Assembly: GCA_029932675.1 (NCBI GenBank)
Contig: JAOZPP010000025.1
Location: forward strand, 1-39,252
Direction of reading: 5' to 3'
DNA length: 39,252 nucleotides
Source: a bacterium
GTDB taxonomy: Bacteria > SM23-81 > DAOVCL01
The notes below the pieces were generated by a model, which made no database searches, was not told the DNA's origin, and saw nothing but the letters and a program-made list of their open reading frames with translations. Within the stretch, counting starts at the first letter, position 1. The number at the start of each line of letters is the position of its first letter. The position numbers and the translations under genes are program-made. This document shows positions 10,648-34,589 of the stretch, piece by piece.

Positions 10648-11901
10648 ATGAAAAAAAGATCCTTGCTTTTCTTGTCTGTATTTTCTCTACTTCTTCCCTT
10701 AGGCAGGACTATGGGTTACACCTTCTACGACACCTATTATGGGGAAAGGATTACCGCCCTAAATGCTCGGTCCTTATCTTTAGGACATACAGGAGTATTG
10801 AGTGAACCATTGGCCATAGGCCTAAATCCTGCGCTCTCCTCCGAGGTAAAGAACTTACGCTTAGCCACTTCCCTGAGGATTACTCAAGCATCCGAAGATA
10901 GGGCATTCCCTGTGCATGACAGCTTCGAGGGCTTTCTCACCTACAACACCTATGCGATGAACACCAACTACTACAATGACTTCTCCCTCGCAGTGGTTAA
11001 AGGGTCCACCCTCCCATACATCCCCACCATCGGCTTAGCTTGGTATCCATTTTCTAATTTCAGATATAAATATGGGGAGGAAATAAGGGGGCTGAAAGAC
11101 CCTAACAAGGACAAACTCTTAGCCCGGAATTTGATCAAGTCCTCTGGTGAAATAGACGCCCTTTCCTTTAGCCTTTCCCAGGGGGTTACTCCCTGGTTGG
11201 GAGTGGGAGTCTCCCTGAATATCCTGCGGGGAACGGCAAAGAAATCCAGGGAAACAGATTCTTTAAATACCCCTCAGACCGACCGAAGGGAGGTATGGAA
11301 GAATAGAGCCCTTAAGGGAAGCAACATCTCCTTAGGTCTCACCTATAAGGCCTCGGGCAGATTCAGGTTTGGCCTCTCCTACGGGTCAAAGCCGACCATC
11401 AAGGGTGACCATTACTATCAGGATTTTTTGGGGGATTCCCTTATAGCCGACACCACCCTTAGTTATAAACTTACCTACCCTTGGGAGGTTAACTTTGGGG
11501 TGGAATATAGGCCGAGGAGTATACTTCAAACCAGAATATACTTGGAGACGGCCTTCACCAGATGGTCTAAGCTGCGAACATCGCTACCAGACACCTCCCT
11601 CCCCAAATTGCGAGATGTCTGGGAGATAAAGGGAGGTGTTGAACACATCTTCTTCAACCAAATTCGGGCGAGGTTCGGATTCCTCTATCAGCCATCCCCC
11701 TTTGGCCAGGGCATGGCCAGATCGGCCTTCACCTTCGGTACAGGATTTAAGAGCAAGGGGATGGATATAGACTTTGGAGGGGAGGTGGGGAATAGGGAAT
11801 ATAGGCAGGAGGACCTCTTCCCGGAAAGTGTACCACCGAGAAAGGATCGAATAAAGGAATCCTTGATTAAATTTATAGTAACGATAAGCTATCAAACTTA
11901 G
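10648..11901 (+). CDS. Outer-membrane beta-barrel protein, PorV/FadL-like
   Basis: A second barrel-type outer-membrane protein of 417 residues. The signal peptide is KKRSLLFLSVFSLLLPLGRTMG. The mature start (NARSLSLGHTGVL, then GLNPALSS) repeats the pattern of the PorV/UPF0164 family, and the remainder is amphipathic strands. I use the ATG at 10648, five bases after GGAGG, rather than the ATG at 10636 that contains part of this ribosome binding site. Its stop codon is part of the ribosome binding site (TAGGAGG) of the following 5'-nucleotidase, indicating translational coupling. Function not identifiable beyond the fold. Confidence 0.7.
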   Translation: MKKRSLLFLSVFSLLLPLGRTMGYTFYDTYYGERITALNARSLSLGHTGVLSEPLAIGLNPALSSEVKNLRLATSLRITQASEDRAFPVHDSFEGFLTYNTYAMNTNYYNDFSLAVVKGSTLPYIPTIGLAWYPFSNFRYKYGEEIRGLKDPNKDKLLARNLIKSSGEIDALSFSLSQGVTPWLGVGVSLNILRGTAKKSRETDSLNTPQTDRREVWKNRALKGSNISLGLTYKASGRFRFGLSYGSKPTIKGDHYYQDFLGDSLIADTTLSYKLTYPWEVNFGVEYRPRSILQTRIYLETAFTRWSKLRTSLPDTSLPKLRDVWEIKGGVEHIFFNQIRARFGFLYQPSPFGQGMARSAFTFGTGFKSKGMDIDFGGEVGNREYRQEDLFPESVPPRKDRIKESLIKFIVTISYQT

Positions 11902-19903: not shown

Positions 19904-20017
19904 TTCCCTCCTGGGAGGGAAAGGAGGGCGAGGACCGGGGAGCAATCCCCCCAAGGGGAGGACTGCTGAGTACCGGAGGGGTGAAAGCCACTCTGGGGAA
20001 CTTGGCGAGCTGAGTTC
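19904..20017 (+). ncRNA. Structured intergenic element, copy A
   Basis: One of three related elements. Shared core, in order: CAATCC, 3 nt, CAAG, 3 nt, AGGA (19943-19962), then GAG and a CC...AGGG hairpin. In this copy the hairpins are TTCCCTCC/GGAGGGAA (19904-19921), CAATCC...GGACTG, CCGGAG...CTCTGG with an inner GGT-GAAA-GCC cap (19973-19996), and GAACT...AGTTC (19998-20017). The orientation matching the other copies is plus, opposite to flgJ and flgN, so it is not a leader of those genes if strand matters. Function and class unknown. Confidence 0.55.
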
Positions 20018-20052
20018 AATTATGGCTTCCTGCCGGTTCGCTCACAGAAGGG

Positions 20053-20082
20053 CCCTTGACAAAAGGTATGTAAAGTCAAGGG
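20053..20082 (-). other. Hairpin across the flgJ stop codon
   Basis: CCCTTGAC (20053-20060) and GTCAAGGG (20075-20082) form a perfect 8-bp inverted repeat, and the flgJ stop codon lies in one arm. No T-run follows, so it is more likely to stabilise the end of the upstream flagellar mRNA than to terminate strongly. Confidence 0.4.
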
Positions 20083-20873
20083 GATGGATAGATCAGATCA
20101 AAGAGAGTTTTGTAGTTCAATACCCCCTTCACATATTCCCTTGTTTCCTTTATGGGGGGGAGGGAACCATACTTTTTCACCACCTGAGGACCGGCATTAT
20201 AGGCTGCTAAGGCCTTCTGGAGATCCCCGTCAAATCCATCGATGAGCAGCCTTAGGTATTTACATCCGCCTCTTATATTCTCTTCAGGGTTGAAAGGATC
20301 AATCACCCCTAACTCCTTGCTTGTCCCGTCCAAAAGTTGCATAAGTCCCTTAGCTCCTTTGGGAGATAAGGCCCGCGGCTCTCCCCCGGATTCCTGGACT
20401 ATAATTGCCCTTATTAGATTGGGGCTCAGATTATGAGATGTAGCAGTATCAATGATCAGATGGTCATACCTCCTCAGCCTATTGAGAGCCCCCAATGGGA
20501 TCTTTGACTCAAGGGGTTCCCTATACGCCTGAAGAAGGACTCCTTGTGACCAGAGGGGGAGATTGCTCCTTTTTACCCCAACCACCCCCTCTCCCCTCAT
20601 GGTTTCCCTGAGGAGGGAAGAAAGGCCTAAACCTTCCCTTTTAGATAGTTCAATAGCCAGATTTTGATCGATAATATCAGTGAGGATCCCCTCCCCAATT
20701 CCACCTTCCAGAAGGCCGGATTTGGGTATGGTTTTCCTCATAATTTTCAGTAGATAGGAGAGAAAAAGTGAGTCAAACTCCTTACAGACACTCTCTATTT
20801 TTCCTTCATTTCTTCCTTTCCAGGCAGGTGGTGAAGTATGGAAAGAAGCTATATGATTCACTCCCTTGTTCAT
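20076..20873 (-). CDS. flgJ: FlgJ-like rod protein fused to a lytic transglycosylase
   Basis: A 265-residue protein with two parts. Residues about 25-95 match the rod-binding FlgJ domain (EFDSLFLSYLLKIMRKTI, then GEGILTDIIDQNLAIELSKR). Residues about 140-262 are an SLT lytic transglycosylase with catalytic Glu in IIVQESGGEP, then GAKGLMQL and ALAAYNAGP. It would open peptidoglycan so that the rod can pass. Classic enterobacterial FlgJ carries an unrelated glucosaminidase domain instead; the SLT fusion is known in several other phyla. Its ATG overlaps the flgI stop (ATGA), and a hairpin covers its own stop codon. Confidence 0.88.
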   Translation of the reverse strand: MNKGVNHIASFHTSPPAWKGRNEGKIESVCKEFDSLFLSYLLKIMRKTIPKSGLLEGGIGEGILTDIIDQNLAIELSKREGLGLSSLLRETMRGEGVVGVKRSNLPLWSQGVLLQAYREPLESKIPLGALNRLRRYDHLIIDTATSHNLSPNLIRAIIVQESGGEPRALSPKGAKGLMQLLDGTSKELGVIDPFNPEENIRGGCKYLRLLIDGFDGDLQKALAAYNAGPQVVKKYGSLPPIKETREYVKGVLNYKTLFDLIYPSP

Positions 20874-22000
20874 ATTATCACCAGCTTGGCATGTAAGGCT
20901 CCCGCTTTTTTTAAAGCTTGAAAAATAGTAATTATATCCCTGGGGCTTAGACCCAAGGTATTCAAAGCGTCCGCTACCTCCCCTACTGTTGTGCTTGGTG
21001 GAAGGGAGTATAGCTTCCCTCCCTGCTCAGAAAGGGCACCTTGCGGTTGAGTAAATATGGCAGTCTGACCCAGAGAAAACGGTTTCGGCTGGGAGACAAG
21101 GGTCTGGGAAGCTATCTCAATCTTTAAGCCCTTATGGGCTATGGCAACTGGTGAAATTTCCACATTTTCTCCCACCACCACTGTCCCCGTTCGCTCATCT
21201 ATAACAACCTTGGCCGGGGCATCAGGAACGACCCGCAAATTCTCCAGTTGGGAGACAAAGCCAACCACTATCTTCCCCCTGGTAGAATCTTGGGGAACCT
21301 TCACCTCCACTGAACAAGCATCCTGGGGGGTTGCCGTTCCCTCTCCCATCTGCTTGTTGATTGCCTGAGCTACCCGGTATGCTGAGGTAAAGTCAGGCTG
21401 ATATAGGCAGATATAGATCACCCCTTCTTTATAGAAACCTTCTGGTGGGCTTTTCCTCACTAATCCCCCATTGGGAATCCTTCCCACAGTAGCTAACCTA
21501 TACCTATAAGGAAGATGAACCAGAGAGACCGGTCCCACCCGGCCTGTGGAGATGGGCCCCTGTGCAGTGATCCATACCTCTCCGTCCGGCCCACGCAACG
21601 GGGTGAGCAACAAGGTGCCTCCATCAAGCCCTTTGGCATCTCCCAGGGAAGATACGGTCACATCCACCCTATTCCCCTTCTTCACATAGGGAGGAAGGGT
21701 GGCAGTAACCATAACCGCGGCTACATTCTTAGCCTCCAGGTTGGGTTGCGAGATACTTATCCCCATTCGTTTCAACATATTGATTATGGTCTGGACAGTA
21801 AATACTGTTCTCCGGCTATCCCCTGTCCCCTTAAGGCCGACCACCAAGCCATAACCAATCAACTGCTCCTCATCCGGCCCTCTGATCTCCGCTATATCCT
21901 TTATCCTGGTAGAGTAAGTCAGAGAAGAGAAGGCAAAGAGGGATAACCATATCAAGAGAGACATTCTCAGAAAGTAATTTTTCCTCTTAGTATTCAACAT
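20870..22000 (-). CDS. flgI: Flagellar P-ring protein FlgI
   Basis: Periplasmic P-ring subunit, 376 residues, normal length. After a signal peptide (ending near SLTYS) comes the conserved start TRIKDIAEIRGPDEEQLIGYGLVVGL-like block, GTGDSRRT, VAAVMVTATLPPYVKKGNRVDVTVSSLGDA and the C-terminal GEVADALNTLGLSPRDIITIFQALKKAGAL. All are hallmarks of FlgI. It sits in the order flgA-flgH-flgI-flgJ with a 4-bp overlap with flgJ. A P ring implies a periplasm and peptidoglycan of the Gram-negative type. Confidence 0.96.
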   Translation of the reverse strand: MLNTKRKNYFLRMSLLIWLSLFAFSSLTYSTRIKDIAEIRGPDEEQLIGYGLVVGLKGTGDSRRTVFTVQTIINMLKRMGISISQPNLEAKNVAAVMVTATLPPYVKKGNRVDVTVSSLGDAKGLDGGTLLLTPLRGPDGEVWITAQGPISTGRVGPVSLVHLPYRYRLATVGRIPNGGLVRKSPPEGFYKEGVIYICLYQPDFTSAYRVAQAINKQMGEGTATPQDACSVEVKVPQDSTRGKIVVGFVSQLENLRVVPDAPAKVVIDERTGTVVVGENVEISPVAIAHKGLKIEIASQTLVSQPKPFSLGQTAIFTQPQGALSEQGGKLYSLPPSTTVGEVADALNTLGLSPRDIITIFQALKKAGALHAKLVII

Positions 22001-22038
22001 TTCTGCCTTTAAACCTGTGTCACAAATGAATTATCCAA

Positions 22039-22617
22039 CTAAAAGAACCAATCGAGGATCCTGAGGAATATACCCTTCTTTTGCCCAGCGTCGATTGCCC
22101 CTTTCCCCTTGTATCCAATTTGAGCATCGGCTACATAGATGGAGAGGACTGTGTTATCTGGTCCTATATCCTCAGGTCTCACTAACCCTTTAAGGGTTAT
22201 CTCCTCCTTATCCTGATTCACCTGAACCGTCTTCTTCCCCTCAATCCGCAAATCTCCATTGGGCAGGATCTCCACTACGCGGGTAGTTATTGTGGCCCAG
22301 AGTTTTCCCTGACGCGAGGTTCTGCCCACCCCATCATGCCTATTCTTGTAGTCCACCCCCCCGGAGAAGAGGGGGATGAAATCCAAAACCCCTGTCCCTC
22401 CACCGGAGGCAGAGATCTCGTCCTTCTTTTGCGTGTAGGTTCTTGCCGTTCTGGAGGCCGAAGATTGTTCAGTGATCAAGACAGTAAGGATATCCCCCAC
22501 CCTCTGTGCCCTCCTATCGGTGTAGAGGGAATATGAGGGAACAGTAAGGGAATCCCCTTTCCCCAATTGGGGTAAGAGGAGGAGGAAAGTCAAAATTATG
22601 GGTAAAAATCTACTCAC
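22039..22617 (-). CDS. flgH: Flagellar L-ring protein FlgH lacking a lipobox
   Basis: Outer-membrane L-ring subunit of 192 residues, near the shorter end of the family. The conserved core is present: SLYTDRRAQRVGDILTVLITEQSSAS, then GKLWATITTRVVEILPNGDLRIEGKKTVQVN and LVRPEDIGPDNTV. Most FlgH proteins are lipoproteins with a cysteine at the signal cleavage site. Here the signal peptide reads LLLLPQLGKGDS with no cysteine, so acylation is unlikely. The gene begins 12 bp after flgA and ends 38 bp before flgI. Confidence 0.94.
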   Translation of the reverse strand: MSRFLPIILTFLLLLPQLGKGDSLTVPSYSLYTDRRAQRVGDILTVLITEQSSASRTARTYTQKKDEISASGGGTGVLDFIPLFSGGVDYKNRHDGVGRTSRQGKLWATITTRVVEILPNGDLRIEGKKTVQVNQDKEEITLKGLVRPEDIGPDNTVLSIYVADAQIGYKGKGAIDAGQKKGIFLRILDWFF

Positions 22618-22629
22618 CCCATCTCCTAA

Positions 22630-23319
22630 TCAATTGAGGATTTGAACCTCGCCCTTCTCAATCCTGGCTGAAAGCCTCTTACCAGAAGCTAAGACCCTAA
22701 CCCTAATTACATCCCCTTCCCAACCATCCTCCAGCGCTTTGCCCTTCGTCCTTAGAGAAAAACCTGGATGTTTCAAGCTGAGTTCTACTACTTGCCCTTT
22801 CCCTACCAACGGGGGAACCTCCACCAAATCGGCGGTAACGACTTCCCCCCGATTGATACCTCTTTTTGCCCTCTTGCCAACAACTTCCTCCAAATTTCTC
22901 AAAGGATGCCGAATGAAGGGAGGTATCTCCCTCTCCTCCCAAGCCACCTTATCCTCGGTAAGGACCTCGTATCTCTTGATCAACTTAGTAGCCACCAGGA
23001 CCTTCCCCACCTCCCTTACTCTCACAATCAGTGGAACCTCCTTGACCAGCACCCCCTGAGAAAAGGCTCTCAATTTCACCAGATAGGTACCCAGGTAACT
23101 CTTCCGGGAGGAAGGAACAACCTGTAACTCCCATCCCGTATCGATATCTTGGGGGATATTTAAAACCTCCACCTGGAACTTATCCTCCCCTCCACCAAGT
23201 CGATTCATGATATAAGTCCTTACCAACGAGGCTATTTGCCCCTGAGGGAGATAACTCGCCTGGACCGTAAGGCCTGGAGAAAGGAGAACAAAAAGAATGA
23301 TACTAAAAAATTTCCTCAT
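22630..23319 (-). CDS. flgA: Flagellar P-ring assembly chaperone FlgA
   Basis: Periplasmic chaperone for P-ring formation, 229 residues. A signal peptide (1-21) is followed by a variable N-terminal half and a SAF domain at about 105-165 (VLVATKLIKRYEVLTEDKVAWEE, then LEEVVGKRAKRGINRGEVV) and the C-terminal barrel (GQVVELSLKHPGFSLRTKGKALEDG). These are the FlgA features. The ATG overlaps the flgG stop codon by 4 bp, so it is translationally coupled to flgG. Confidence 0.92.
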   Translation of the reverse strand: MRKFFSIILFVLLSPGLTVQASYLPQGQIASLVRTYIMNRLGGGEDKFQVEVLNIPQDIDTGWELQVVPSSRKSYLGTYLVKLRAFSQGVLVKEVPLIVRVREVGKVLVATKLIKRYEVLTEDKVAWEEREIPPFIRHPLRNLEEVVGKRAKRGINRGEVVTADLVEVPPLVGKGQVVELSLKHPGFSLRTKGKALEDGWEGDVIRVRVLASGKRLSARIEKGEVQILN

Positions 23320-24095
23320 CTGGAAAGCCTATTGATAAGGGAGAGCATAGTGTCGGAGGCTTGGATGACCTTACTGTTTATCTCATAGGCTCTTTGTGCC
23401 ATTATCATAGCCACCATCTCATCCACTATATCCACATTGGATGCCTCCAGTTGTCCCTGAGATAGCTGACCCATCCCCTCCTGGGTAGGTTCCTCCAGAA
23501 AGGCTTCCCCAGAAGCAACAGTGGGCAGGTAAAGGTTTCTCCCAATAGACTGGAGGCCCCCTGGGTTGATGAATTTGGCCAAAGTAATTTGCCCTAATTC
23601 TTCAGGTTCTGACTCTCCCACTAAGGTAACTGAGACCTTCCCATCAGGTGAGATAGAGATCCCCGCAGCCTCTGGAGGTATGGTGAGCTCAGGGTAAAGG
23701 AGGTAACCATCAGAGGTAACGATCCGCCCCTCTCCATCGAGTTTAAAGGAACCATCCCTGGTATAGGCTAAGGAACCATCAGGCATAAGCACCTGAAAGA
23801 ACCCCCTCCCTTCTATCATCAAATCCAGGGGATTCCCAGTTTGAACTATCTTCCCCTGAGAGAAGTCACGGGTAGTGGCACTCACCCTGGTCCCATTTCC
23901 TACCTGAATTAAAAAGGGACCCCTTTCGCCTTCTTGTCCCCCCTGGCCATAGTGCTGGTAGAAGAGGTCCTCAAAGCTAACCCGGCTCTTCTTGAAACCC
24001 GTTGTGTTCACATTGGCCAGGTTGTTGGCCACAACATCTACACAGAGCTCTTGAGCGGACATTCCGGTTGCCGCTGTTAACATTGCCTTTAACAT
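23316..24095 (-). CDS. flgG: Flagellar distal rod protein FlgG
   Basis: Axial distal-rod subunit, 259 residues, typical length. The N-terminal motif LTAATGMSAQELCVDVVANNLANVNTTGFKK, the central NPLDLMIEGRGFFQVLMPDG and the C-terminal LEASNVDIVDEMVAMIMAQRAYEINSKVIQ are diagnostic for FlgG rather than other rod or hook proteins. It is the first gene of a five-gene rod and ring operon (flgG-A-H-I-J) and follows a sigma-54 promoter at 24161-24176. A GGAGG lies upstream of the ATG. Confidence 0.95.
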   Translation of the reverse strand: MLKAMLTAATGMSAQELCVDVVANNLANVNTTGFKKSRVSFEDLFYQHYGQGGQEGERGPFLIQVGNGTRVSATTRDFSQGKIVQTGNPLDLMIEGRGFFQVLMPDGSLAYTRDGSFKLDGEGRIVTSDGYLLYPELTIPPEAAGISISPDGKVSVTLVGESEPEELGQITLAKFINPGGLQSIGRNLYLPTVASGEAFLEEPTQEGMGQLSQGQLEASNVDIVDEMVAMIMAQRAYEINSKVIQASDTMLSLINRLSR

Positions 24096-24160
24096 AACCC
24101 ATCCTCCTGCTGATCTTTGACCTTAACCCTCCCTTGCGGGTTGAACTCATCAGGAGATTT

Positions 24161-24176
24161 AGCAAATCTTATGCCA
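24161..24176 (-). promoter_or_regulatory. Sigma-54 (RpoN) promoter of the flgG operon
   Basis: The minus strand reads TGGCATAAGATTTGCT, which keeps the -24 TGGCA and the -12 TTGCT with the invariant GG-to-GC spacing of sigma-54 promoters. Transcription would start about 12 bases after the GC, giving a leader of roughly 55 nt before flgG. Sigma-54 with a bacterial enhancer-binding protein controls middle flagellar genes in many bacteria. Only about 30 bp separate it from the upstream terminator, so enhancer sites must be elsewhere. Confidence 0.75.
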
Positions 24177-24201
24177 CTTAAGATGGTGGTCCCTAAAAGA
24201 C

Positions 24202-24236
24202 AAAAAAGGGGATGAAATCCTATCGATTCCATCCCC
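24202..24236 (-). terminator. Terminator after cheX
   Basis: GGGGATGAAATC (24208-24219) and GATTCCATCCCC (24225-24236) form a 12-bp stem with one A-C mismatch and a 5-nt loop. On the minus strand the stem is followed by six T residues (24207-24202). It separates the CheY/CheX transcript from the flgG operon. Confidence 0.85.
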
Positions 24237-24308
24237 TACAAAATCTTAGGCAAGGGTAAAAGGTCACTTCCTGAGGAAAGCTTTTCCTAAAGAGGAACTT
24301 TTTTCCGT

Positions 24309-24770
24309 TTATCTCTGCAGGCTAACCTCAACAAAGAACTTCTCCTTTCCTACTGTAAATGGAAGTAAGGCTGCTTCTCCGTCCATTTTCGTCTCCATAG
24401 TATAGTCCTCCCCGGCAATTACGGCGGGTATAGAGATATCGAAGGCAATACCGCTCTTGAATAGCTTAGTCTTTGCCCCTCCGGCCACCATATTGGCTAT
24501 CTCCCCAACTGCATCTTCCACATCTTCATTGATCTCTTCTATATCCTCCTCCAGGATATTTGAGGCAACCTTAGCAGCCATCTTCTTGTCAAAGTGAATG
24601 GTAATGGTCCCTTTTACCTTCCCCGCTATTCCCACAATCCCCGAAATGCCGCCATTTAGAGGAGCCTTGTCACCGTGAATTGGCTCATCGGGTACTGGAT
24701 CCATGGAGACCATCGTTTGAAATACATCTAAGGTCGTATCTCTAACTGCTTGAATGAGTTTGTTATCCAT
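24309..24770 (-). CDS. cheX: CheX-type chemotaxis phosphatase
   Basis: Probable CheY-P phosphatase of the CheC/CheX family, 153 residues, the usual CheX length. The catalytic E-x2-N signature is visible as GEIANMVAGGAK near residues 86-97. The flanking fold matches the family: GISGIVGIAGKVKGTITIHF at the N-terminal half and FDISIPAVIAGEDY later. It starts 13 bp after the double-REC gene behind GGAGG, in the same transcript, so its substrate is likely that CheY-like protein or the cell's main CheY. No CheA, CheW or receptor gene is in the window. Confidence 0.85.
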   Translation of the reverse strand: MDNKLIQAVRDTTLDVFQTMVSMDPVPDEPIHGDKAPLNGGISGIVGIAGKVKGTITIHFDKKMAAKVASNILEEDIEEINEDVEDAVGEIANMVAGGAKTKLFKSGIAFDISIPAVIAGEDYTMETKMDGEAALLPFTVGKEKFFVEVSLQR

Positions 24771-24783
24771 ATAAGCCTCCGTC

Positions 24784-25530
24784 TTATCGGCCTAAAAGCT
24801 TCCTAATTTTCTGCTGAATCACCTGGGGGGTGAATGGCTTAGCCACATAGTCTGAGGCTCCAGCTTGTAAAGCTTGAATTATCTCCTCTTTTGCTGCATT
24901 GGTGGTAACCATCAGAATGGGGATGTTCCCATAAGTCTTCATGCTCCGAAGAGACTTCACAAATTGCAACCCATTCATATTAGGCATATTCCAATCGCAG
25001 AGGATTAGATCGACCCTATTCTGGGCAAGTTTGGCCAAGGCATCTATCCCATTTTCTGCCTCTATAATGTCCTTATGTCCGATCTGCCCTAAGATGTTCG
25101 TGATCACCTTTCTGGTGGTTGAAGAATCATCTATGACCATTATCTTGTATCCAGATATGACCTTATCTATCTTTTCCTTCAAAGCCTCGGCGGTAAACGG
25201 CCTAACGATGTAATTGTTGGTATTTACCCTTGCCGCCTTTAAAGCCTCTTGAGCCTCGCTCTTAGTTGCTTCACTGGTCACCAAGATAATGGGTATCCGG
25301 GTAGGGATATCACTATTCTTTACCAACTGAATGAACTTCGTTCCATCGTCTTCGTTGATGTTCCAATCACTGATGATCAGTTGGAAATCCTCCTTGGCTA
25401 TCTTGCCTAAAGCGTCAACCCCACTTTCCGCCTCCACAACGTTGGTATAACCGATTTGATTGAGCGTATTTTTTAAGAGGCCCTTTCCCACATAAGGGTC
25501 GGTAATTATCATAACCTTTGCTTCAGGCAT
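24784..25530 (-). CDS. Double receiver-domain CheY-like protein
   Basis: A 248-residue protein made only of two response-regulator receiver domains. The second (about 128-248) is canonical: acidic pair in MVIDDSSTTRK, phosphorylated Asp in LILCDWNMPNMNG, switch Thr in MVTTNA and Lys in VAKPFTP. The first (1-125) keeps the Asp in LIISDWNINEDDG and Thr in LVTSEA. However, the acidic pair is reduced to TD (IITDPY) and the conserved Lys is Arg (YIVRPFT), so it may be poorly phosphorylated. No output domain is present, which fits a CheY-type motor or adaptor protein. Its start has a GAGGAGGG site and it is preceded by a sigma-28 promoter. Confidence 0.85.
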   Translation of the reverse strand: MPEAKVMIITDPYVGKGLLKNTLNQIGYTNVVEAESGVDALGKIAKEDFQLIISDWNINEDDGTKFIQLVKNSDIPTRIPIILVTSEATKSEAQEALKAARVNTNNYIVRPFTAEALKEKIDKVISGYKIMVIDDSSTTRKVITNILGQIGHKDIIEAENGIDALAKLAQNRVDLILCDWNMPNMNGLQFVKSLRSMKTYGNIPILMVTTNAAKEEIIQALQAGASDYVAKPFTPQVIQQKIRKLLGR

Positions 25531-25611
25531 TTCAATCCCTCCTCGATGATAATGCCTTCTCCTTGAGGGCTTCTCCCTGTCAACCGGGATTAGAACCAGT
25601 GCTATTTTTAT

Positions 25612-25639
25612 ATATCGGCAATATCAACAAAGAACTTTA
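25612..25639 (-). promoter_or_regulatory. Sigma-28 (FliA) promoter of the CheY-like/cheX pair
   Basis: On the minus strand TAAAG (TAAA at 25639-25636) and GCCGATAT (25619-25612) are spaced 16 bp apart, the same unusual spacing as at flgN. The leader to the ATG at 25530 would be about 75 nt. Confidence 0.72.
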
Positions 25640-25690
25640 ATTGAAAGTGATAAATTTTTAAAAAATCCGAATCCAGAGGATACGCCCTTT

Positions 25691-25724
25691 TCCCCTTGAC
25701 AAAAAGGGGAGGAATTATTATTTT
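25691..25724 (+). promoter_or_regulatory. hrcA promoter with overlapping palindromic operator candidate
   Basis: TTGACA (25696-25701) and TATTTT (25719-25724) have a 17-bp spacer. An inverted repeat TCCCCTT-N6-AAGGGGA (25691-25697 with 25704-25710) overlaps the -35 box. It is not the CIRCE sequence that HrcA normally binds (TTAGCACTC-N9-GAGTGCTAA), which I do not see here or before grpE. The palindrome is therefore a candidate alternative operator. Confidence 0.45.
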
Positions 25725-25745
25725 TCCTTCCGAGGTGATCAAGGG

Positions 25746-26780
25746 ATGGATTCACGATCCTTTTCTCTTTCTTCCCGGGAGAGGTATGTCCTGGAGTCAG
25801 TTGTCCGCCACCACATTCTCACTGCCCAACCAGTAGGGTCAAAGGTTCTGGTTGAGCACTACAACCCGGGCGTGGCCTCTTCAACTGTGAGAAATATCTT
25901 CACTAAACTGGAAAACTTAGGGCTTCTCAGCCAGCCCCATACCTCTGCAGGCAGGGTCCCTACGGAGGCAGGGTATAGGTATTACATTGACGAGTTAATG
26001 AAACCAACTGGACTACCTCCTGAGGAGAGAAAAAAGATAGAGGTGGAGCTTTCCTCCGCTGAAGATGATGTGGAGGCAATTTTGGAACATGCTTCACGAG
26101 CCTTAAGCTACCTCTCTCGCCAGCTTGGTATCTCATTAGCTCTCAAATTCGACCAGGCAATCCTGGAAAAGTTGGAGCTTGTCTCAGCTTCATCCAACCG
26201 GGTGATGCTCATTCTCTTTGTAAAATCTGGACTGATCAAGACAGTACTTTTAGAGATTGACTTTGAAGTCAGTTTGGAAAAACTCAGCTTAACTTCTTCC
26301 ATCCTCAATGAGAGACTGTGTGGTCTATCCCTTCGTCAGATTAGGGAAACAGGAAGAGATAGGTTAAGGGAAATTCAGGATGCCCCCCCATTGGTTGGTT
26401 TCATCCTGAACAGGGCGGGAGAACTCTTTGACTTCTCCAGTGAGGAACATCTTTACTGTGATGGGGCAGCAAACATTACCAGATACCCAGAGTTTCAGAG
26501 TGTGGAGAGGCTGCGCCCCCTTTTGGAGTTCATCGAAGACAGCAGTAGCCTCACCAGGGCCCTCACTTCCGGGATGAAACAGGAAGGCTTCAAGGTTACC
26601 CTTGGACGAGAGAACGCCTATGGTCAGCTTCAAAATTGCAGCCTAATTACCTCCACCTTCCAAAGCACAGCCATGAAGGGGATGGTAGCTGTCATTGGTC
26701 CAATTAGAATGCGATATTCTGTGATTATTCCCTTAGTCAAATATACTTCAAAATTAATCGCTCGGGTATTATCCAAGTAA
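25746..26780 (+). CDS. hrcA: Heat-inducible transcription repressor HrcA
   Basis: Repressor of heat-shock chaperone operons, 344 residues, normal length. The N-terminal winged helix is clear (SSRERYVLESVVRHHILTAQ, PVGSKVLVEHYNPGVASSTVRN, LENLGLLSQPHTSAGRVPTE). The GYRYYID box that follows is diagnostic. The C-terminal part includes GPIRMRYS and VKYTSKLI near the end, as in the family. It is the first gene of the set hrcA-grpE-dnaJ-rsmE, but a terminator lies between it and grpE. It faces away from the chemotaxis genes. Confidence 0.95.
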   Translation: MDSRSFSLSSRERYVLESVVRHHILTAQPVGSKVLVEHYNPGVASSTVRNIFTKLENLGLLSQPHTSAGRVPTEAGYRYYIDELMKPTGLPPEERKKIEVELSSAEDDVEAILEHASRALSYLSRQLGISLALKFDQAILEKLELVSASSNRVMLILFVKSGLIKTVLLEIDFEVSLEKLSLTSSILNERLCGLSLRQIRETGRDRLREIQDAPPLVGFILNRAGELFDFSSEEHLYCDGAANITRYPEFQSVERLRPLLEFIEDSSSLTRALTSGMKQEGFKVTLGRENAYGQLQNCSLITSTFQSTAMKGMVAVIGPIRMRYSVIIPLVKYTSKLIARVLSK

Positions 26781-26811
26781 ACAATCTTTGCTCTCATAGG
26801 CAACTGGAACT

Positions 26812-26887
26812 CCGCCGGGAGGACAACAGCTTGGATAGAGCAATGAGTTGGGGTCTTATCCAAAACTCTCCCTTAAGGCGGTTTTTT
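26812..26887 (+). terminator. Composite terminator or attenuator between hrcA and grpE
   Basis: CCGCCGGGAG (26812-26821) pairs with CTCCC (26868-26872) and GGCGG (26877-26881), with TTAA bulged out. Nested inside, TTGGATA (26831-26837) pairs exactly with TATCCAA (26857-26863). Six T residues follow at 26882-26887. This is an intrinsic terminator with an unusually elaborate stem and probably ends the hrcA mRNA. Confidence 0.7.
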
Positions 26888-27020
26888 CTTAATGGTTGAG
26901 GGAGCAAGGGTTTACATTCTTAGTAAAGCTGCTAATTAGGGTCACTGATTACACCGAGATTCTCTGTTGCTGCTTATCTCACCGGGGGGAACTTCCCACT
27001 CATGGAACCGGCGCGGAGGG
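26888..27020 (+). other. grpE upstream region with candidate promoter
   Basis: A plausible promoter is TTTACA at 26911-26916 and TAATTA at 26933-26938 with 16-bp spacing. It would give a leader of about 220 nt that contains element B. GGAACTT at 26988-26994 is complementary to AAGTTCC at 27148-27154, so the leader could close into one long domain. No CIRCE operator is visible. Confidence 0.4.
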
Positions 27021-27153
27021 CACCCTTGGACAGGTTTAAAGGCTCTCTGTCCCGAAGGGTGAGGATGGGGCAATCCCAGCAAGGGCAGGATGACGAGCGC
27101 CATAGGGTGGTAAGAGCATCTGGAGAAGTTAGCGATCGAAGGGAGCTAAGTTC
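27021..27153 (+). ncRNA. Structured intergenic element, copy B, in the grpE leader
   Basis: Second member of the three-copy family. The core CAATCC-N3-CAAG-N3-AGGA is at 27071-27090. A strong first hairpin joins CACCCTT plus GGACAG (27021-27033) to CTGTCC and AAGGGTG (27047-27061). A last hairpin GAAGTTAGC/GCTAAGTTC (27125-27153, one mismatch) ends 2 bases before the AAGGAGG ribosome binding site of grpE. Its 3' arm could pair instead with GGAACTT at 26988-26994, so two exclusive folds are possible. It is the only copy directly placed in a gene leader. Confidence 0.55.
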
Positions 27154-27168
27154 CTAAGGAGGTGATCT

Positions 27169-27657
27169 ATGGCGGAAAAGAGAACAAGCTACAAAAAGCT
27201 CTCCGAAGAACTAACCTCTCGACTTAAGGAGAAGGAAAAAGAACTTGCCGAATTGAAGGACAGGTATCTTCGCCTGGCCGCGGAGTGGGAAAATTTCAAA
27301 AAGAGGACGGAGAAGAGAATGGGTGAAGTTTTGGAGACAGCCAATCAAGAGCTTGTCTCTCAGCTTCTACCGATCCTCGATGACCTGAGAAGGGCCTCCA
27401 ATAGCAAGGGTAAAGGGCTAAAAAGGGGGGTGAGCCTCATCTACAACAACCTGAATTCCCTTTTAGAGAGGGAAGGGCTAAAGGAGATTGAGGCAGAAGG
27501 AAAGAAGTTTGATCCTCTCTATCACCAAGCCCTACTCCATACTGAGAATAGCCAGGTCCCTGCAGACTGGGTTGCCCAGGAATTAGAGAAGGGCTATACC
27601 TTTCGAGGGAGGCTCTTGCGGCCAGCTAAGGTGGCTGTCTCCAAAGGAGGCAAATGA
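27169..27657 (+). CDS. grpE: Nucleotide exchange factor GrpE
   Basis: Cytosolic cochaperone that releases ADP from DnaK. The 162-residue protein has the long N-terminal coiled coil ([20 protein letters not shown], then [19 protein letters not shown]) and the C-terminal beta wing ([16 protein letters not shown], then [18 protein letters not shown]). AAGGAGG precedes the ATG by 6 bases. The stop overlaps the dnaJ start (ATGA). In most bacteria dnaK lies between grpE and dnaJ; here it is absent and must be encoded elsewhere. Confidence 0.94.
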
Positions 27658-28784
27658 CTAAAAGAGATTATTATGAGATCTTAGGGGTGGCGAAGGATGC
27701 CAGCGAGGAAGAGATAAAGAAGGCATACAGAAAGTTAGCGCTAAAATACCATCCAGATAAGAACCCGGGAGATAAGGAAGCGGAGGAGAAGTTTAAAGAG
27801 GCCACGGAGGCCTACGAGGTCCTTAGGGATCCCCAAAAGAGAGCACAATACGATCGCTTTGGCCATAGCGGGTTAAAGGGTGGCTTCCAGGGTTTTGACT
27901 TTCAAGGGTTTGATCTCTCCGATGCCCTGCGTGCCTTTATGCGGGACTTTAGCGACTTCGGCTTCGGCGATCTCTTCGGGGAGAGGAGAGCATCCCGTCA
28001 GAGAGCAAGGAGGGGCTCGGATCTCCAGGTAAAGCTAAAGCTCTCCTTAGAGGAAATAGCCACTGGAGTGGAAAAGACAATAAGGCTGAAACGGTTTCAA
28101 AGATGCTCCGCCTGTGGGGGAACCGGTGGCCGAATGCGTACCTGCCCTACCTGCCAAGGGAGGGGCGAGGTGAGAAGGGTCTCCCATGGTATCTTTGGCC
28201 AATTCGTCAATGTAAGCACCTGCCCTACTTGTGGAGGGGAGGGAAGGGTAATTGACCAGGCCTGTTCCGTCTGTGGGGGGGAAGGGAGGATAAAGGCATC
28301 TTCTACGGTAACGGTGAAAGTCCCCGCAGGGGTCACCACTGGTAACTATATCCCTATAAAAGGGGGAGGGGATATAGGACTCCGTGGAGGCCCCCCGGGG
28401 GATCTAATAGTCCTTATCGAGGAGAAGGAGCACCCGCACTTTCAGCGGCAGGGGGATGATATCCTCTTAGAACTGCCTATAAGTATCCCCCAAGCAGTCT
28501 TGGGTGATCAAGTAAGGATACCCACTCTGGAGGGAAGCGTCAACTTAAAGATACCCGGAGGGAGCCAATCAGGGATGGTTCTCCGGTTGCGGGGAAAAGG
28601 GTTACCCCATCTTCACGGCTATGGAAGGGGAGACCTTTTGGTAAAGATAATGGTTTGGATACCAACCCATTTGGGACCAGAGGAAAGGGCCCTCTTCCAA
28701 AAGCTCTCCCAGATGGAAGGGATAAAACCTCCGAAGGAGGATAAGGGATTCTTCAGCAAAATCAAAGAAGCTTTGGGAGTTTAG
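27654..28784 (+). CDS. dnaJ: Chaperone DnaJ (type I Hsp40)
   Basis: Cochaperone that delivers clients to DnaK and stimulates its ATPase. The 376-residue protein starts with a J domain with the HPD motif (KYHPDKNPG, near residue 32). A Gly/Phe-rich linker follows (about 75-120). The zinc domain has four CxxCxGxG motifs ([32 protein letters not shown]), and two C-terminal client-binding domains complete the protein. It overlaps grpE by 4 bp, so the pair is translationally coupled and shares whatever control element B provides. Confidence 0.96.
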
Positions 28785-28867
28785 CTGGCCCTATAAGCCA
28801 AGATCTTCCTTTGGGACTAAGGCCGAATCTGATTACCCGATTTTTGCACCTTTAATCTTCTATAAGA

Positions 28868-29584
28868 TTGGAGACATTTTACGTCCCTCCCCAGCTAATT
28901 AAGGGCAAGAAGGTTATTCTTGACCCGGAAGAGACCTGGCATGCCTCTCAGGTGCTTAGGTTGAGGCCGGGTGATGAGATCAGGGTGGTAGATGGCCAGG
29001 GAAGTTCCTATAAAGCTATCATCCGCAAGCTAAGCGACCAAGGATTGGAGGGTGAGATAGTCGATGCTCTTCAAACAACAAATGAACCTGGGGTAGAAAT
29101 CTCCCTTGCCTTCGCCCCCCCCAAGGGCAGAAGGGCAGAGATTCTGGTGGAGAAGGGAACAGAGTTGGGGGCTAACGTCTTCCTCCCCTTAATTACTGAA
29201 CGGACGGTGGTTCATCCCTCCCCTACGAAGGTCGATCGGTGGAGGAGAATAGCACAACAGGCAATGAAACAGTCAGGGCGTAGCCTTTGGCCAAAGGTAG
29301 CCAAGCCACAGAGCTTCGACCAGTTCCTCCAAAAAGCGGAACAATATGATCAGCTTTTCCTCTGCTGTCTCCATCCCGCTGCCCAACCGCTGAAGCTGGA
29401 GAACAATCTAACAAGTACAATCCTTCTCGCCTTGGGTCCGGAAGGGGGATTCTCTTCAGCCGAGGTGGAGAGGGCAAGGAGAAAGGGCTTCTATTTGGTA
29501 AGCTTGGGGAGGAGAAGGTTAAGAGTGGAGACGGCAGCAATCGTCTCCCTTGCCCTCCTCCTCCACAAGTTGAAGGAAATCTGA
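28868..29584 (+). CDS. rsmE: 16S rRNA m3U1498 methyltransferase RsmE
   Basis: SPOUT-class methyltransferase that methylates U1498 of 16S rRNA with S-adenosylmethionine, 238 residues. Family features: N-terminal METFYVPP, HASQVLRLRPGDEIRVVDGQG, then ILVEKGTELGANVFLPLITERTV and the knot region LALGPEGGFSSAEVERAR and LRVETAAIVSLALL. rsmE often follows dnaJ (or prmA) in bacteria. The start is a TTG at 28868 without a clear Shine-Dalgarno sequence; it is the most plausible because it places the conserved FYV at residues 4-6. The stop overlaps the next start (TGATG). Confidence 0.9.
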   Translation: METFYVPPQLIKGKKVILDPEETWHASQVLRLRPGDEIRVVDGQGSSYKAIIRKLSDQGLEGEIVDALQTTNEPGVEISLAFAPPKGRRAEILVEKGTELGANVFLPLITERTVVHPSPTKVDRWRRIAQQAMKQSGRSLWPKVAKPQSFDQFLQKAEQYDQLFLCCLHPAAQPLKLENNLTSTILLALGPEGGFSSAEVERARRKGFYLVSLGRRRLRVETAAIVSLALLLHKLKEI

Positions 29585-30858
29585 TGAATCAGAAAACATT
29601 TTTTTTCTTTATCCTCTTAAGCTGCTGCGTCTTTTCTTCTACTACCCGGGCAGATAAAATCCTAATCTATATGGATTTGGAGCAGGCCGATCACTTGAAG
29701 GCTTATGGCGTTGCCTATAAAGCCCTGGAGTGGGGTTACAAGGTGGAGTGGCTCTTAAACTACCGTGGTGGCTCATTTATGACCCCAGCGGTCCAAGATA
29801 TAGCCCACATTTGCCATCTACGGGGTGTATCCTTCACCATAGTTGGTGGAGACCAGATTGCTCAGATCTACAAGGAGATCGAGGAAAAGAATATGGAAAA
29901 CATCCTCTTAGAGAAGGCTCCTTCCATTGCCATCTATACACCACCCAACAAGGAACCTTGGGACGATGCAGTCACCTTAGCCCTCACCTATGCTCAAATA
30001 CCCTACACTACCCTTTGGGATGAGGGGGTATTAGCGGGGCAACTGGAAGACTTCGATTGGCTCCACCTCCACCACGAGGACTTCACCGGACAGTATGGCA
30101 AGTTCTATGGCCTCTATCGAAACGCCCTCTGGTATAAGAAGGAAGTGGCTATAAATCAAGAGATGGCCAAACATTTAGGTTTTTTTAAGGTCTCTGAGCT
30201 AAAAAAGGCCGTGGCCAGGGCAATAAAGGACTATGTGGCCAAGGGTGGGTTTCTTTTCTCTATGTGTTCGGCCACCGATACCTATGATATCGCCCTGGCG
30301 GCGGAAGGGGTAGATATCGTCGATACCCCCTTTGATGGGGATCCCCCTGATCCAGACTATCAGGCAAAGCTTGACTACTCAAAGACATTTGCCTTCACCA
30401 ACTTCAAGTTGATCACTAACCCCTTAGTCTATGAGTTCTCAGACATTGACATCAGCCCCCAGAACGGATATCCGCCTCTGGGGCCCCTTAAGAATTCTTT
30501 CACCCTCTTCGAGTTCTCTGCAAAATATGATCCAGTTCCTACTATGCTCACCCAAGACCATGTCTCGGTGATCAAGGGGTTTATGGGACAGACAACGGCA
30601 TTTAGGAAGGACCTAATTAAAAAACATGTGATCATTATGGGCGAAGAGATAGCCAACCCCGATGCAGTTAAATACCTACATGGGAACTATGGGCGGGGGA
30701 CATTCACCTATTTAGGGGGTCATGATCCGGAGGACTACGAACACTTTGTCTATGATCCTCCGACAAATTTGGCCCTTTATAAGAATTCCCCCGGTTACCG
30801 GCTTATCCTGAACAACATTCTCTTTCCGGCAGCAAAGAAGAAGGAGAGGAAGACTTGA
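29584..30858 (+). CDS. Secreted protein of unknown function, annotated in relatives as asparagine synthetase B-like
   Basis: Exported protein of 424 residues: a signal peptide (1-23, ending TTRA) and then KILIYMDLEQADHLKAYGVAY and KVEWLLNYRGGSF. To my recollection similar proteins in FCB-group genomes carry the name asparagine synthetase B, but I see none of the glutaminase or synthetase catalytic motifs, so I do not accept that function. The middle section GGFLFSMCSATDTYDIALAAEG and the final YLGGHDPEDYEHFVYDPP resemble a class-I amidotransferase-like alpha/beta fold with a Cys after a beta strand. It overlaps rsmE and is followed by the TIGR04076-like gene in TTGA overlap, so all are cotranscribed. 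Confidence 0.6.
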   Translation: MNQKTFFFFILLSCCVFSSTTRADKILIYMDLEQADHLKAYGVAYKALEWGYKVEWLLNYRGGSFMTPAVQDIAHICHLRGVSFTIVGGDQIAQIYKEIEEKNMENILLEKAPSIAIYTPPNKEPWDDAVTLALTYAQIPYTTLWDEGVLAGQLEDFDWLHLHHEDFTGQYGKFYGLYRNALWYKKEVAINQEMAKHLGFFKVSELKKAVARAIKDYVAKGGFLFSMCSATDTYDIALAAEGVDIVDTPFDGDPPDPDYQAKLDYSKTFAFTNFKLITNPLVYEFSDIDISPQNGYPPLGPLKNSFTLFEFSAKYDPVPTMLTQDHVSVIKGFMGQTTAFRKDLIKKHVIIMGEEIANPDAVKYLHGNYGRGTFTYLGGHDPEDYEHFVYDPPTNLALYKNSPGYRLILNNILFPAAKKKERKT

Positions 30859-31124
30859 GCAGCTTTAAGATAAAGGTGAGGGTAAAGGGAGTCTTGGAAG
30901 GAGGAACCTGTCCTTTCGGCCTCAAACCGGGTGACGAGTTCGTCTTTGAACATCTCCCCCCGCAGAATTTCTGTCATTGGGCCTTCTATGTGATCCTCCC
31001 CTTTGCTACTGCCCTCAGGTTTGGAGGGAATATCCCTTGGGAAAAGGAGGAGGGGAAGGCGACCCTTTGCTGCCCAGATGCCCAAAACCCCGTGGTCTTT
31101 GAGCTGGAGAGAATTAAACCCTAA
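30855..31124 (+). CDS. TIGR04076 family small protein
   Basis: An 89-residue cytosolic protein with the family pattern: a short beta start (FKIKVRVKGV), the GLKPGDEFVFE motif, a Cys-containing segment (PPQNFCHWAFYVILPFATAL), FGGNIPW and the ending CCPDAQNPVVFELERI. The family is widespread in anaerobes and has no established function. The conserved cysteines (CPFG, FCHW, CCPD) hint at metal binding. The TTG start overlaps the preceding stop codon by 3 bases, so translation is coupled. Confidence 0.8.
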   Translation: MSSFKIKVRVKGVLEGGTCPFGLKPGDEFVFEHLPPQNFCHWAFYVILPFATALRFGGNIPWEKEEGKATLCCPDAQNPVVFELERIKP

Positions 31125-31304
31125 TAGCCCTATGTGGTTTTTGCCAACTTGATTGGGATCCTCATAAAACGCGGGCTTCAAGGTTTACTCAAGAAATTCA
31201 TAAAACAAGACCTTGCCATAGCACAGATTAAACACTTATTATCGGTTGCGATTCCTCCGCTGTGATGTTATCTTAGTGTAAAATTAAAAGGGGAGCTGAC
31301 AAAA

Positions 31305-31508
31305 ATGAACGATATTACCCTCAAGATCCCTTCTGAAATAATCATAAAGATCTTACGACGGATTCCCCGGAAGCAACTAAGAGAGCTTCAGCAGAAAATC
31401 CAGAGAGAAGAAGTAAGATCAGTCCCAGCAGGTGATCTTCTTAAACTCGCTGGCATCGCTTCCATTGGAGGAGACGCAGTTAAAGATACGGAAGAAGTAT
31501 GGCAATGA
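31305..31508 (+). CDS. Putative antitoxin of a PIN-domain toxin pair
   Basis: A 67-residue protein that starts with a short beta-like stretch (NDITLKIPSEII) followed by a basic helix (KILRRIPRKQLRELQQKIQ) and a polar tail containing LLKLAGIASIGGDAVKDTEEVW. The tail resembles the neutralising tails of VapB-type antitoxins, where a GDAV-like segment often occurs. The gene overlaps the PIN toxin downstream by 10 bp, the classic antitoxin-then-toxin order. A GGGGAG site lies before the ATG. Antitoxin identity is inferred from context and tail. Confidence 0.7.
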   Translation: MNDITLKIPSEIIIKILRRIPRKQLRELQQKIQREEVRSVPAGDLLKLAGIASIGGDAVKDTEEVWQ

Positions 31509-31969
31509 ACAAAGCAATCATGGATGCTAATGTCCTGTTGGCCCTTATAGACAAAAAGGATAAGTGGCACCATGATGCTAAGACTATTGCAAGAGCTCTA
31601 AAGGAAAAAGATTGGGAGGTCATCTACCTCGATTGTGTATTAAATGAGGTGGTCTCAGTTCTTGGGAAAAGGCTCAAAGAGAAAAATAAGCTCCATTACT
31701 TTACCGAACTCATAGAAAAACTGGAGGAGATTGTAAGCGAAGAGGATATCGAATGGCTTTATCCCGAAGTGCCGGACCATTACGGCGAGATTATGAAATT
31801 AATTAAGGAAAAGGAAGGGAGGCTTAACTTCCACGATGCCCTAATAGCCCTATTTGCCAAAGAATACAGCATAGACTACATTGTGAGTTTTGATTTAGGC
31901 TTTGATGGAATAGAATGGATTGCAAGGATAGGAAATAAAAAGGATATAACCGCAAAAGGACATGCATAA
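31499..31969 (+). CDS. PIN-domain ribonuclease toxin, VapC-like
   Basis: Predicted metal-dependent RNase of 156 residues. Acidic active-site residues typical of PIN domains are visible: Asp in IMDANVLLALID, Glu in VLNEVVSVL, Asp in FHDALIALFA and Asp in IVSFDLGFDG. It overlaps the small upstream gene by 10 bp. VapC toxins cleave tRNA or rRNA to slow growth when the antitoxin is lost; the target here is unknown. ATG at 31505 is an alternative start two codons later. Confidence 0.82.
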   Translation: MAMNKAIMDANVLLALIDKKDKWHHDAKTIARALKEKDWEVIYLDCVLNEVVSVLGKRLKEKNKLHYFTELIEKLEEIVSEEDIEWLYPEVPDHYGEIMKLIKEKEGRLNFHDALIALFAKEYSIDYIVSFDLGFDGIEWIARIGNKKDITAKGHA

Positions 31970-32103
31970 ACCAGATAAACACGGTTTTTCAAATGAGATT
32001 ACCTTCAGTTTTAAAAAGCTCCTTATTTTGAATGTCTCGTGATACTCTGGTGAAATCTTGCGGTTTCTCAATGCATAATTTTGTTAAACCTAAGGAGGAA
32101 GCG

Positions 32104-32322
32104 ATGGCCAAGGTATGCGATATTTGTGGCAAGCGACCGATGTTTGGTAACCGAGTCAGCCATGCAAAGAATAGGACCAAGCGCAGGTGGTTCCCTAACC
32201 TACATAAGGTGAGGGTGATGGTGGACGGAACTTCCAAAAGGTTGAACGTCTGCACCCAATGCTTAAGGTCGGGCCGGGTGAAGAAAGCCGTTGGGCAGGT
32301 CAAAACCCCAGAGTTAACCTGA
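32104..32322 (+). CDS. rpmB: 50S ribosomal protein L28, zinc-binding form
   Basis: Large-subunit ribosomal protein of 72 residues. [20 protein letters not shown] and [13 protein letters not shown] are the family signature. The four cysteines (CDIC and CTQC) identify the zinc-ribbon (C+) form. The true start is the ATG at 32104, seven bases after TAAGGAGG-type spacing (AAGGAGG at 32093-32099). An in-frame upstream start at 32032 would add a non-L28 sequence. Structured element C begins about 35 bp after the stop. Confidence 0.95.
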
Positions 32323-32356
32323 TTTAACGTTTCGGAATTCCGAAAGATGGAGGGTA

Positions 32357-32479
32357 GGCTAAAGGGGCTAAGCCTTTTCAAGAAGTGAGGGCGGAGCAAT
32401 CCGCGCAAGCCCAGGATTGCGGAGCACCAGAGGGGCAGTGAAACCCCTTGGAGCATTTGGCCCCCCAGGGGGCTAAATG
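32357..32479 (+). ncRNA. Structured intergenic element, copy C
   Basis: Third member of the family, after rpmB. Core CAATCC-N3-CAAG-N3-AGGA at 32397-32416, with CAATCC pairing exactly to GGATTG. The second hairpin is CCA-AGGGG / CCCCT-TGG (32427-32451, loop containing GTGAAA). The last is a 12-bp stem (32454-32465 with 32468-32479, one G-T pair) on a two-base loop. That last stem could also help end the rpmB transcript, though no T-run follows. A separate very strong promoter starts 25 bp downstream. Confidence 0.55.
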
Positions 32480-32503
32480 TCTGTGAAGCCCGCCAGAAAT
32501 CCC

Positions 32504-34136: not shown

Positions 34137-34589
34137 ATGATTACCATCTACTTAGATACATCCGTAATCAGTTCCTATTTTGATATGAGAAATCCGGAAC
34201 GCATGGAACTTACCCGTTATTTCTGGAAAGAGTTACCCAGATTCAAAAGCTACATATCTGACATCACCGCTGCGGAAGTTGCTGCCACTCCTGATGCTGA
34301 ACTACGCGAAAGTATGCGAGCCCTGATAACTCCGCTTCTCCCACCTCTCACTATTACTACTGAAGCCCTTGAATTAGCCGAGGAATACATAAAAGGAGGG
34401 GCAATCCCCAAGGGTTATCCTGAAGATGCTCAACATATTGCAGTGGCCACAGTGAAAGGGATTCGCTATTTGACTAGTTGGAATTTCAAACACATCGTCA
34501 GGGAAAGGACAAAAGCAGTGGTAAACCTGATAAATATTAGGTCCGGCTATGGGGAGTTGAAAATAGTTACTCCTCCGGAGTTGGTATAA
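34137..34589 (+). CDS. PIN-domain toxin, VapC family (second locus)
   Basis: Predicted RNase of 150 residues. Acidic residues fit the PIN fold: Asp in TIYLDTSVISSYFD, Glu in DITAAEVAAT, Asp in PEDAQHIAVATV, and the TSWNFKHI signature frequent in VapC toxins. Unlike the first PIN locus, no antitoxin lies upstream. A small gene follows 15 bp downstream and may be its partner. A palindromic repeat lies directly upstream, and the surrounding region is accessory in character. Start ATG at 34137 has no strong ribosome binding site. Confidence 0.8.
   Translation: MITIYLDTSVISSYFDMRNPERMELTRYFWKELPRFKSYISDITAAEVAATPDAELRESMRALITPLLPPLTITTEALELAEEYIKGGAIPKGYPEDAQHIAVATVKGIRYLTSWNFKHIVRERTKAVVNLINIRSGYGELKIVTPPELV

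Follow-up and report, generated by a model that had tools for sequence, protein, structure and literature searches.

An uncatalogued family of small mobile DNA elements rich in hairpins, found in a bacterium of the SM23-81 lineage and in six further bacterial families

Three structured intergenic elements had been noticed, from the letters alone, in a contig of 39,252 nucleotides (JAOZPP010000025.1 of assembly GCA_029932675.1, GTDB lineage SM23-81; DAOVCL01), which we refer to as the window. They lie between two flagellar genes (copy A), in front of grpE (copy B) and behind rpmB (copy C), and the initial annotation left open whether they represent a riboswitch, an independent small RNA or a mobile structured element. 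Here we report that the three elements belong to a family of small mobile DNA units, rich in hairpins and not catalogued before, and that the three sites are very probably insertions of a non-autonomous, target-selective element composed of five hairpins.

The core by which the copies had been recognised, CAATCC-N3-CAAG-N3-AGGA, is present exactly at positions 19943, 27071 and 32397, and these are its only matches without mismatch in the window, where ~6 chance matches are expected once three mismatches are tolerated. The genome to which the window belongs (G000; 3.03 Mb in 116 contigs, the window being contig C91) was searched with up to two mismatches and returned, besides the three copies, one more exact match and a group of matches in a clearer form, CAATCCGAGC-NR-GCG-N-AGGA; in better-preserved copies the core reads GCAATCCGAGCNRGCGNAGGATTGC. 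A covariance model (R1) was then built from 11 aligned copies (133 positions, 41 pairs). It matched G000 55 times at E<=1 and ~39 times at E<1e-3 (best 1.8e-30), bearing out the expectation that three copies within 13 kb imply many in the genome, and a search of 60 relatives yielded at least 54 matches in the genome of a sister species (G001), so that further copies were found in both the bacterium's own genome and a related one. The bit scores of copies A, B and C are partly circular, all three being among the training sequences of R1, which does not apply to the ~30 other copies in G000 at E<1e-3. Scanning 84,980 species for the exact pattern retrieved 17 matching stretches in records of Candidatus Zixiibacteriota CSMAG_1030, apparently the same genome as G001; a pattern scan for split cores gave mostly noise.

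Comparison of the two genomes provides direct evidence for mobility. Within the ~1.5 Mb of G000 DNA compared for empty sites, the site corresponding to each of the 16 G001 copies with alignable flanks (16/16) is without the element. At one such locus (L074) the junction reads CTTG-element-TAGT versus CTTGTAGT at the empty site, and at L106 and L114 the junctions are likewise defined, to within a base or three. None of these three clean sites displays a target-site duplication when set against its empty counterpart. At L105, extra sequence in G000, including GCTAAGTT, could be a remnant of the element. The reciprocal situation is found for the window: the grpE interval measures 361 bp and its G001 counterpart 191 bp, and no element is present in G001 behind rpmB or between the flagellar genes, although the latter interval has diverged so that the junction there is inexact. 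The element is mobile, as the initial annotation had offered among its options, and it inserts precisely and without target duplication at the cleanest sites.

A complete unit is ~167 nt long and consists of hairpins HP0-HP1-HP2-HP3-HP4 between the ends ACRTTTCGG (5') and AAGTTC (3'). HP0 reads ACRTTTCGGAATTTCTAAGAAATTCCGAAAYGT; HP1 reads YTTGAAGGGGG-loop-CCCCCTTCAAG and is followed by GGTGACA; HP2 is GC-GGA-GCAATCC-GA-GCNRGC-GNA-GGATTGC-GGA-GC, HP3 is CCAkAGGGnC-loop-GnCCCTmTGG and HP4 is GAAGTTAGC-GA-CC-GAA-GG-GA-GCTAAGTTC, with an apparent tandem G.A pair step inside HP4 in 43 and 45 of 46 copies. Modules come and go: HP2 is missing in some copies, between direct repeats GCGGAGC, foreign hairpins are carried in HP1 or HP2 of others, and HP1 or HP2 may be swapped while HP0 and HP4 are kept. 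Hairpins of the repetitive extragenic palindrome (REP) type that are linked to Y1 transposase genes are present inside some composite copies, and GTAG or GGAG stands before HP1-HP4 in many copies (before HP1 also ATG or TTG), in a G-rich sequence where chance matches are likely. Solo HP0 and solo HP4 hairpins also occur; in G001 (L278, contig C16), a solo HP4 inserted where a coding sequence ends gives it an in-frame stop codon, and the orthologous site in G000 is without it.

All three copies of the window are diverged members of the family and lie on the forward strand. Copy A (19904..20017; R1 match 19918-20020, 62 bits, E 7e-11) is degraded, its 5' part (HP0) being eroded, and is antisense to both of its flagellar neighbours. 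Copy B (26984..27153; R1 match 27028-27156, 83 bits, E 1.5e-15) lies in the grpE leader, its 3' end abutting the Shine-Dalgarno sequence and its 5' boundary being deduced from the size difference relative to the empty site. Within it, HP2 (27070..27095) holds the CAATCC...AGGA core, as judged from alignment with 10 other copies; HP3 (27100..27123; CCATAGGG...TCTGG) is more strongly conserved than any other hairpin of the family (alignments A3-A5); and HP4 (27125..27153; GAAGTTAGC...GCTAAGTTC) is the 3'-terminal hairpin, whose end is set by the empty sites of other copies. Copy C (32327..32481; R1 match 32352-32483, 107 bits, E 7e-21) lies just 3' of rpmB and has a shortened HP0 and an HP4 that is altered yet complementary. 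The initial annotation had thus placed three real members and seen their series of hairpins, whose common order is confirmed by alignment; it had missed the 5'-terminal fifth hairpin HP0, and the true ends of copies B (~26984-27153) and C (~32327-32481) differ from those first given. Mobility, one of its options, and the pairing that it had inferred are both supported, while the target preference and the range across phyla described below had escaped it.

The 60 relatives and the exact-pattern scan had suggested a genus-specific repeat, a view overturned by the covariance search with R1 of 386 genomes. Matches were found in nine genomes from six families, all outside the phylum of the window (G061; G097, G364 and G235; G211 and G341; G229; G288; G068). 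One of these, G061, is a single contig of 5.04 Mb with at least 8 matches (best 134 bits). Scoring was confined to the eight best candidates of each genome, which makes the copy numbers minima; on rescoring of the retrieved DNA, 43 matches were confirmed. The core common to the families can be written HP1-AAGGGGTGACAG-HP2-RCGCCAGAGGGGYGAAARCCCCTATGGAR. Three copies in G211 (L296, L299 and L300) possess an extra module, TCGCTGGAGCGACGAATAAGGAGCTCCGTGTTAGCGACGGGCGCGAGA..GAGCGCCCCGGAG, which separates AAGGGG from GACAG in the core, and in G097 (L308, contig C45) two copies at 9983-10103 and 10997-11117, ~1 kb apart and with a 352-bp identical flank, represent a tandem duplication that includes the element. 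The inability of the initial annotation to name an RNA class was well founded: Rfam 15 gave no family (0) above the gathering threshold in the window, with the best sub-threshold scores at chance level, only tRNA, RNase P and c-di-GMP-I in five loci of other carriers, all of them elsewhere in those loci, and no match for the cores of two other carrier groups. Phage, plasmid and viral collections contained no match to the element at the sensitivity used.

Base pairing is conserved with compensatory changes, both within the genus and between families. That the arms change and remain complementary, as the initial annotation had remarked, was recovered from the 11 copies that include those of the window (25 double-change cells versus 10.7 after shuffling). 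In a plain MAFFT alignment of 46 good copies, 95.8% of cells are paired, and changes on both sides affect 14 pairs and 59 cells versus 5.3 and 15.7 in shuffled alignments, with none of 500 shuffles reaching the observed values; sliding the pairing partner abolishes the signal. Since cells count sequences rather than events, relatedness inflates these double-change counts within the genus, and the alignment across families is therefore the better argument for pairing. Among its 42 sequences, double changes are seen in 14 of 21 predicted pairs, one base pair of HP2 being C-G in 16, U-A in 15 and G-C in 8, and the sequence of HP1 is almost wholly replaced with its pairing retained. Mismatches of the G-U type outnumber A-C mismatches 93:23, or 56:23 without one constantly G-U column (counts made with no correction for ancestry), suggesting that it is this strand that folds, as RNA or as single-stranded DNA.

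From the sequences flanking 66 left and 84 right ends, the insertion target was derived as TAACTnr^n6GG (p = 3e-9 for T-7, 4e-12 for A-6, 3e-9 for A-5, 2e-7 for T-3, 1.5e-11 for G+7 and 7e-11 for G+8), which the element's own junction, TAAGTTC^ACRTTTCGG, resembles. Of 99 copies, 26 end 4-23 nt 5' of a plausible start codon, a Shine-Dalgarno sequence being present in most cases; at baseline, 2.7% of insertion positions would fall within 5-22 nt, an approximate value from a home-made gene finder that missed genes could double. Relative to the flanking genes, 46 copies are in the ++ and 18 in the -- orientation, and 22 versus 18 when the start-proximal copies are set aside. Just three of the 99 copies lie between convergent genes, others being antisense or between other gene pairs. 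The target is the same in start-proximal and other copies, and the G-run at +7/+8 is found also in copies that are not close to starts. Many copies are located just 5' of start codons, and co-directional with the genes, because the Shine-Dalgarno sequence supplies the G-rich half of the target; proximity to start codons as a function in itself was accordingly abandoned in favour of target preference. Replication-strand insertion as the cause of orientation was also discarded, since the direction of the element follows GC skew in just 20 of 42 cases. Within the window, two open reading frames (ORFs; 31499-31969 and 34137-34589) resemble, by eye, PIN-domain proteins of the VapC type.

In two groups, the sequence next to the element recalls the 3' end of the element itself. 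Copies of the group that ends in ATATCTTG have a 5' flank similar to this end (4.10 of 8 positions match versus 2.17, sd 0.26, at other offsets), and the same is true of G000 and G001, where the end is CTAAGTTC (3.34 matches versus 2.06, sd 0.18). A peculiar arrangement is seen in G229, where all seven copies examined (L305 and L320-L325) lie ~67-76 nt 3' of a tRNA gene (Ser twice, Gln twice, Cys, Leu twice). Their 5' start is complementary to the T-arm of the adjacent tRNA, and their 3' side mostly ends in a copy of the 3' part of the tRNA, e.g. TCCCTGCCTCTCCGCCA or ACTCCTTCCTCCCCAGCCA, eroded in L324. No copy of the other groups was seen to adjoin a tRNA gene directly, and a by-eye comparison inside G001 revealed no variants of the HP4 arm that covary with their targets.

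How the element moves can be proposed as follows. An enzyme acting in trans would move the ~167-nt unit and insert it without duplicating the target; in this genus the target, TAACTnr^nnnnnnGG, resembles the 3' end of the element joined to its 5' start. Copies landing 5' of start codons would, if transcribed, form a folded 5' leader. Selection acting on the active lineage would keep the hairpins complementary, the most plausible reason being that the mobility machinery handles a folded single strand, be it RNA or single-stranded DNA.

Two rival readings are improbable. The position of the start-proximal copies and their conserved fold might indicate a cis-regulatory leader (a riboswitch, attenuator or thermometer) through which the genes behind it are controlled. 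These genes are unrelated (grpE, mnmG, smpB, ftsK, mazG, ribBA, bactofilin and others) and their orthologues in the sister species, grpE included, are without the element; a regulon or riboswitch, the latter being one of the options of the initial annotation, is rejected for these reasons. Other copies are antisense or between other gene pairs, and position is accounted for by the target preference, leaving regulation of this kind highly improbable. Hardly better placed is the idea that the copies are independent small RNA genes spread through duplication: the conserved RNA-like core, the covariation across families and the excess of G-U over A-C mismatches would suit it, yet copies have nothing in common past the exact ends of the unit, and the precise empty sites are unlike gene duplication. 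Nor was a shared promoter or terminator seen among the copies, although no search aimed at one was made.

Other readings concern the machinery. A repeat akin to REPs or bacterial interspersed mosaic elements (BIMEs), moved on single-stranded DNA by a REP-associated Y1 (RAYT) transposase, is possible, as GGAG or GTAG stands at the 5' foot of HP1-HP4 in many copies, insertion leaves no duplication, some hairpins occur alone, both genomes contain Y1 genes and Y1-linked REP hairpins reside within some composite copies. Nevertheless, at the eight Y1 loci examined in G000 and G001, the hairpins flanking Y1 genes, where present, are other REPs; each well-flanked Y1 gene has its own, and HP0 and HP4 flank none. 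Degraded Y1 fragments near two copies (L249 and L250) are not flanked units, the direction of the element does not follow GC skew, and a five-hairpin composite with a core in several families is unlike REPs of 20-40 bp (PMC3733652). One host genus carries many REP systems at once: RAYT-like Y1 genes with distinct REPs, e.g. GTAG-GGACAGGGCTTTAGCCCTGTCC, GAGCCGTCAGAACCCCGATTCTGACGGC and GTGTCAGGAGGTAACTCCTGACAC, were observed at L238, L240, L242, L243, L245 and L247, and a dispersed repeat, GTGGCAGAATCGGGGTTCTGCC, frequent in G000 and G001 and of the same hairpin type as that flanking the Y1 gene of L243, lies in the downstream flank of L178 and L097. We regard as equally possible a minimal integrative element served in trans by a site-specific (tyrosine) recombinase, the similarity between flank and 3' end being the recombination core. 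The tRNA-adjacent copies of G229, most of them carrying the tRNA 3' end again on their far side, the flank resemblance in two other groups and two copies standing in tandem behind an HP4 end (L034 and L062) favour it; in this genus the core would have just ~5 of 7 matching positions, no arm-type sites were identified, and the conserved internal core is not explained by this reading alone. The more doubtful proposition is a mobile structured RNA class not known before, in which the core HP1-GGGGUGACAG-HP2-HP3 has spread between phyla and the terminal arm, by pairing with the insertion site, acts as a changeable guide, matching TAACT in this genus, ATATCTTG in another group and host tRNA T-arms in a third. 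Pairing between arm and target and the resemblance between flank and 3' end are not independent observations, and by sequence the patterns would fit a shared recombination core and a guide alike, the two not being separable here.

Several observations weigh against a mobile, target-selective unit moved in trans. The mobilising enzyme was not found among the classes examined (Y1, IS110 and Y2; no integrase or reverse-transcriptase search was run): the IS110 transposase domain PF02371 is absent from G000 and G001 while positive controls matched, and the Y2 domain PF04986 had no match in either genome or, likewise, in the control genomes. Autonomous copies, in which an ORF would lie between the two ends, were not found, HP0-only and HP4-only matches being solo hairpins, truncated copies or contig ends. 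Outside G000 and G001, some insertions are common to species of one genus, and some copies are therefore old; at such shared sites (L310/L316 and L293/L295) the flanks are 94-97% identical, too close for the rates of element and flank to be compared. The flank in G061 does not resemble the 3' end (2.25 matches versus 1.88, n=8). Finally, the single-stranded core GGGGTGACAG is conserved and so is the sequence of HP3, which suggests that the element does more than provide ends to be recognised.

To our knowledge, small interspersed repeats of bacteria do not usually extend beyond a single genus or host group, and there is no agreed mechanism for their mobilisation. Exact ends, empty sites, a measurable target and one core in several families make the mechanism of the present element directly testable, and the carriers form a comparative set for finding the mobilising enzyme; if the terminal arm were a guide, the element's own folded strand would direct insertion. 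The element, which no current RNA library would annotate, places folded leaders before housekeeping genes in some species and adjoins tRNA genes in another.

Among known systems, HEARO-type mobile RNAs couple a structured RNA to mobility and insert without target duplication. The same holds for IStrons (PMC4227781). From these and from self-splicing introns the element differs in having no Rfam match in the carriers scanned and no associated ORF or sign of splicing seen. Like a miniature inverted-repeat transposable element, it is short, non-autonomous, mobile and folded; classical members of that class have terminal inverted repeats and a target duplication (PMC3049150), whereas the ends ACRTTTCGG and AAGTTC are not mutual inverted repeats and the clean sites lack a duplication. 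With REPs, BIMEs and REPINs it shares palindromic hairpin units, clustering, a mosaic build, intergenic location and the absence of a gene of its own. REPs measure 20-40 bp, and those of the GTAG type go with a RAYT gene that has the same REPs on its flanks (PMC2817692, PMC3733652, PMC3116915), whereas the element is ~167 nt long and flanks no Y1 gene. BOX elements are multi-copy, modular and non-autonomous, with a predicted RNA fold, one dispensable module and sites polymorphic between strains (PMC3049150). They are enriched between convergent genes, where our element is rare (3/99), gathering instead 5' of starts, and they come from streptococci (PMC3049150) rather than from six further families, a comparison made by description and not by alignment of BOX sequences. 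The element is nonetheless multi-copy, modular, non-autonomous and interspersed too, its outer modules being fixed and its inner ones optional. Having some features of REPs and BIMEs without their defining transposase association, it is in its behaviour most like the BOX elements of streptococci.

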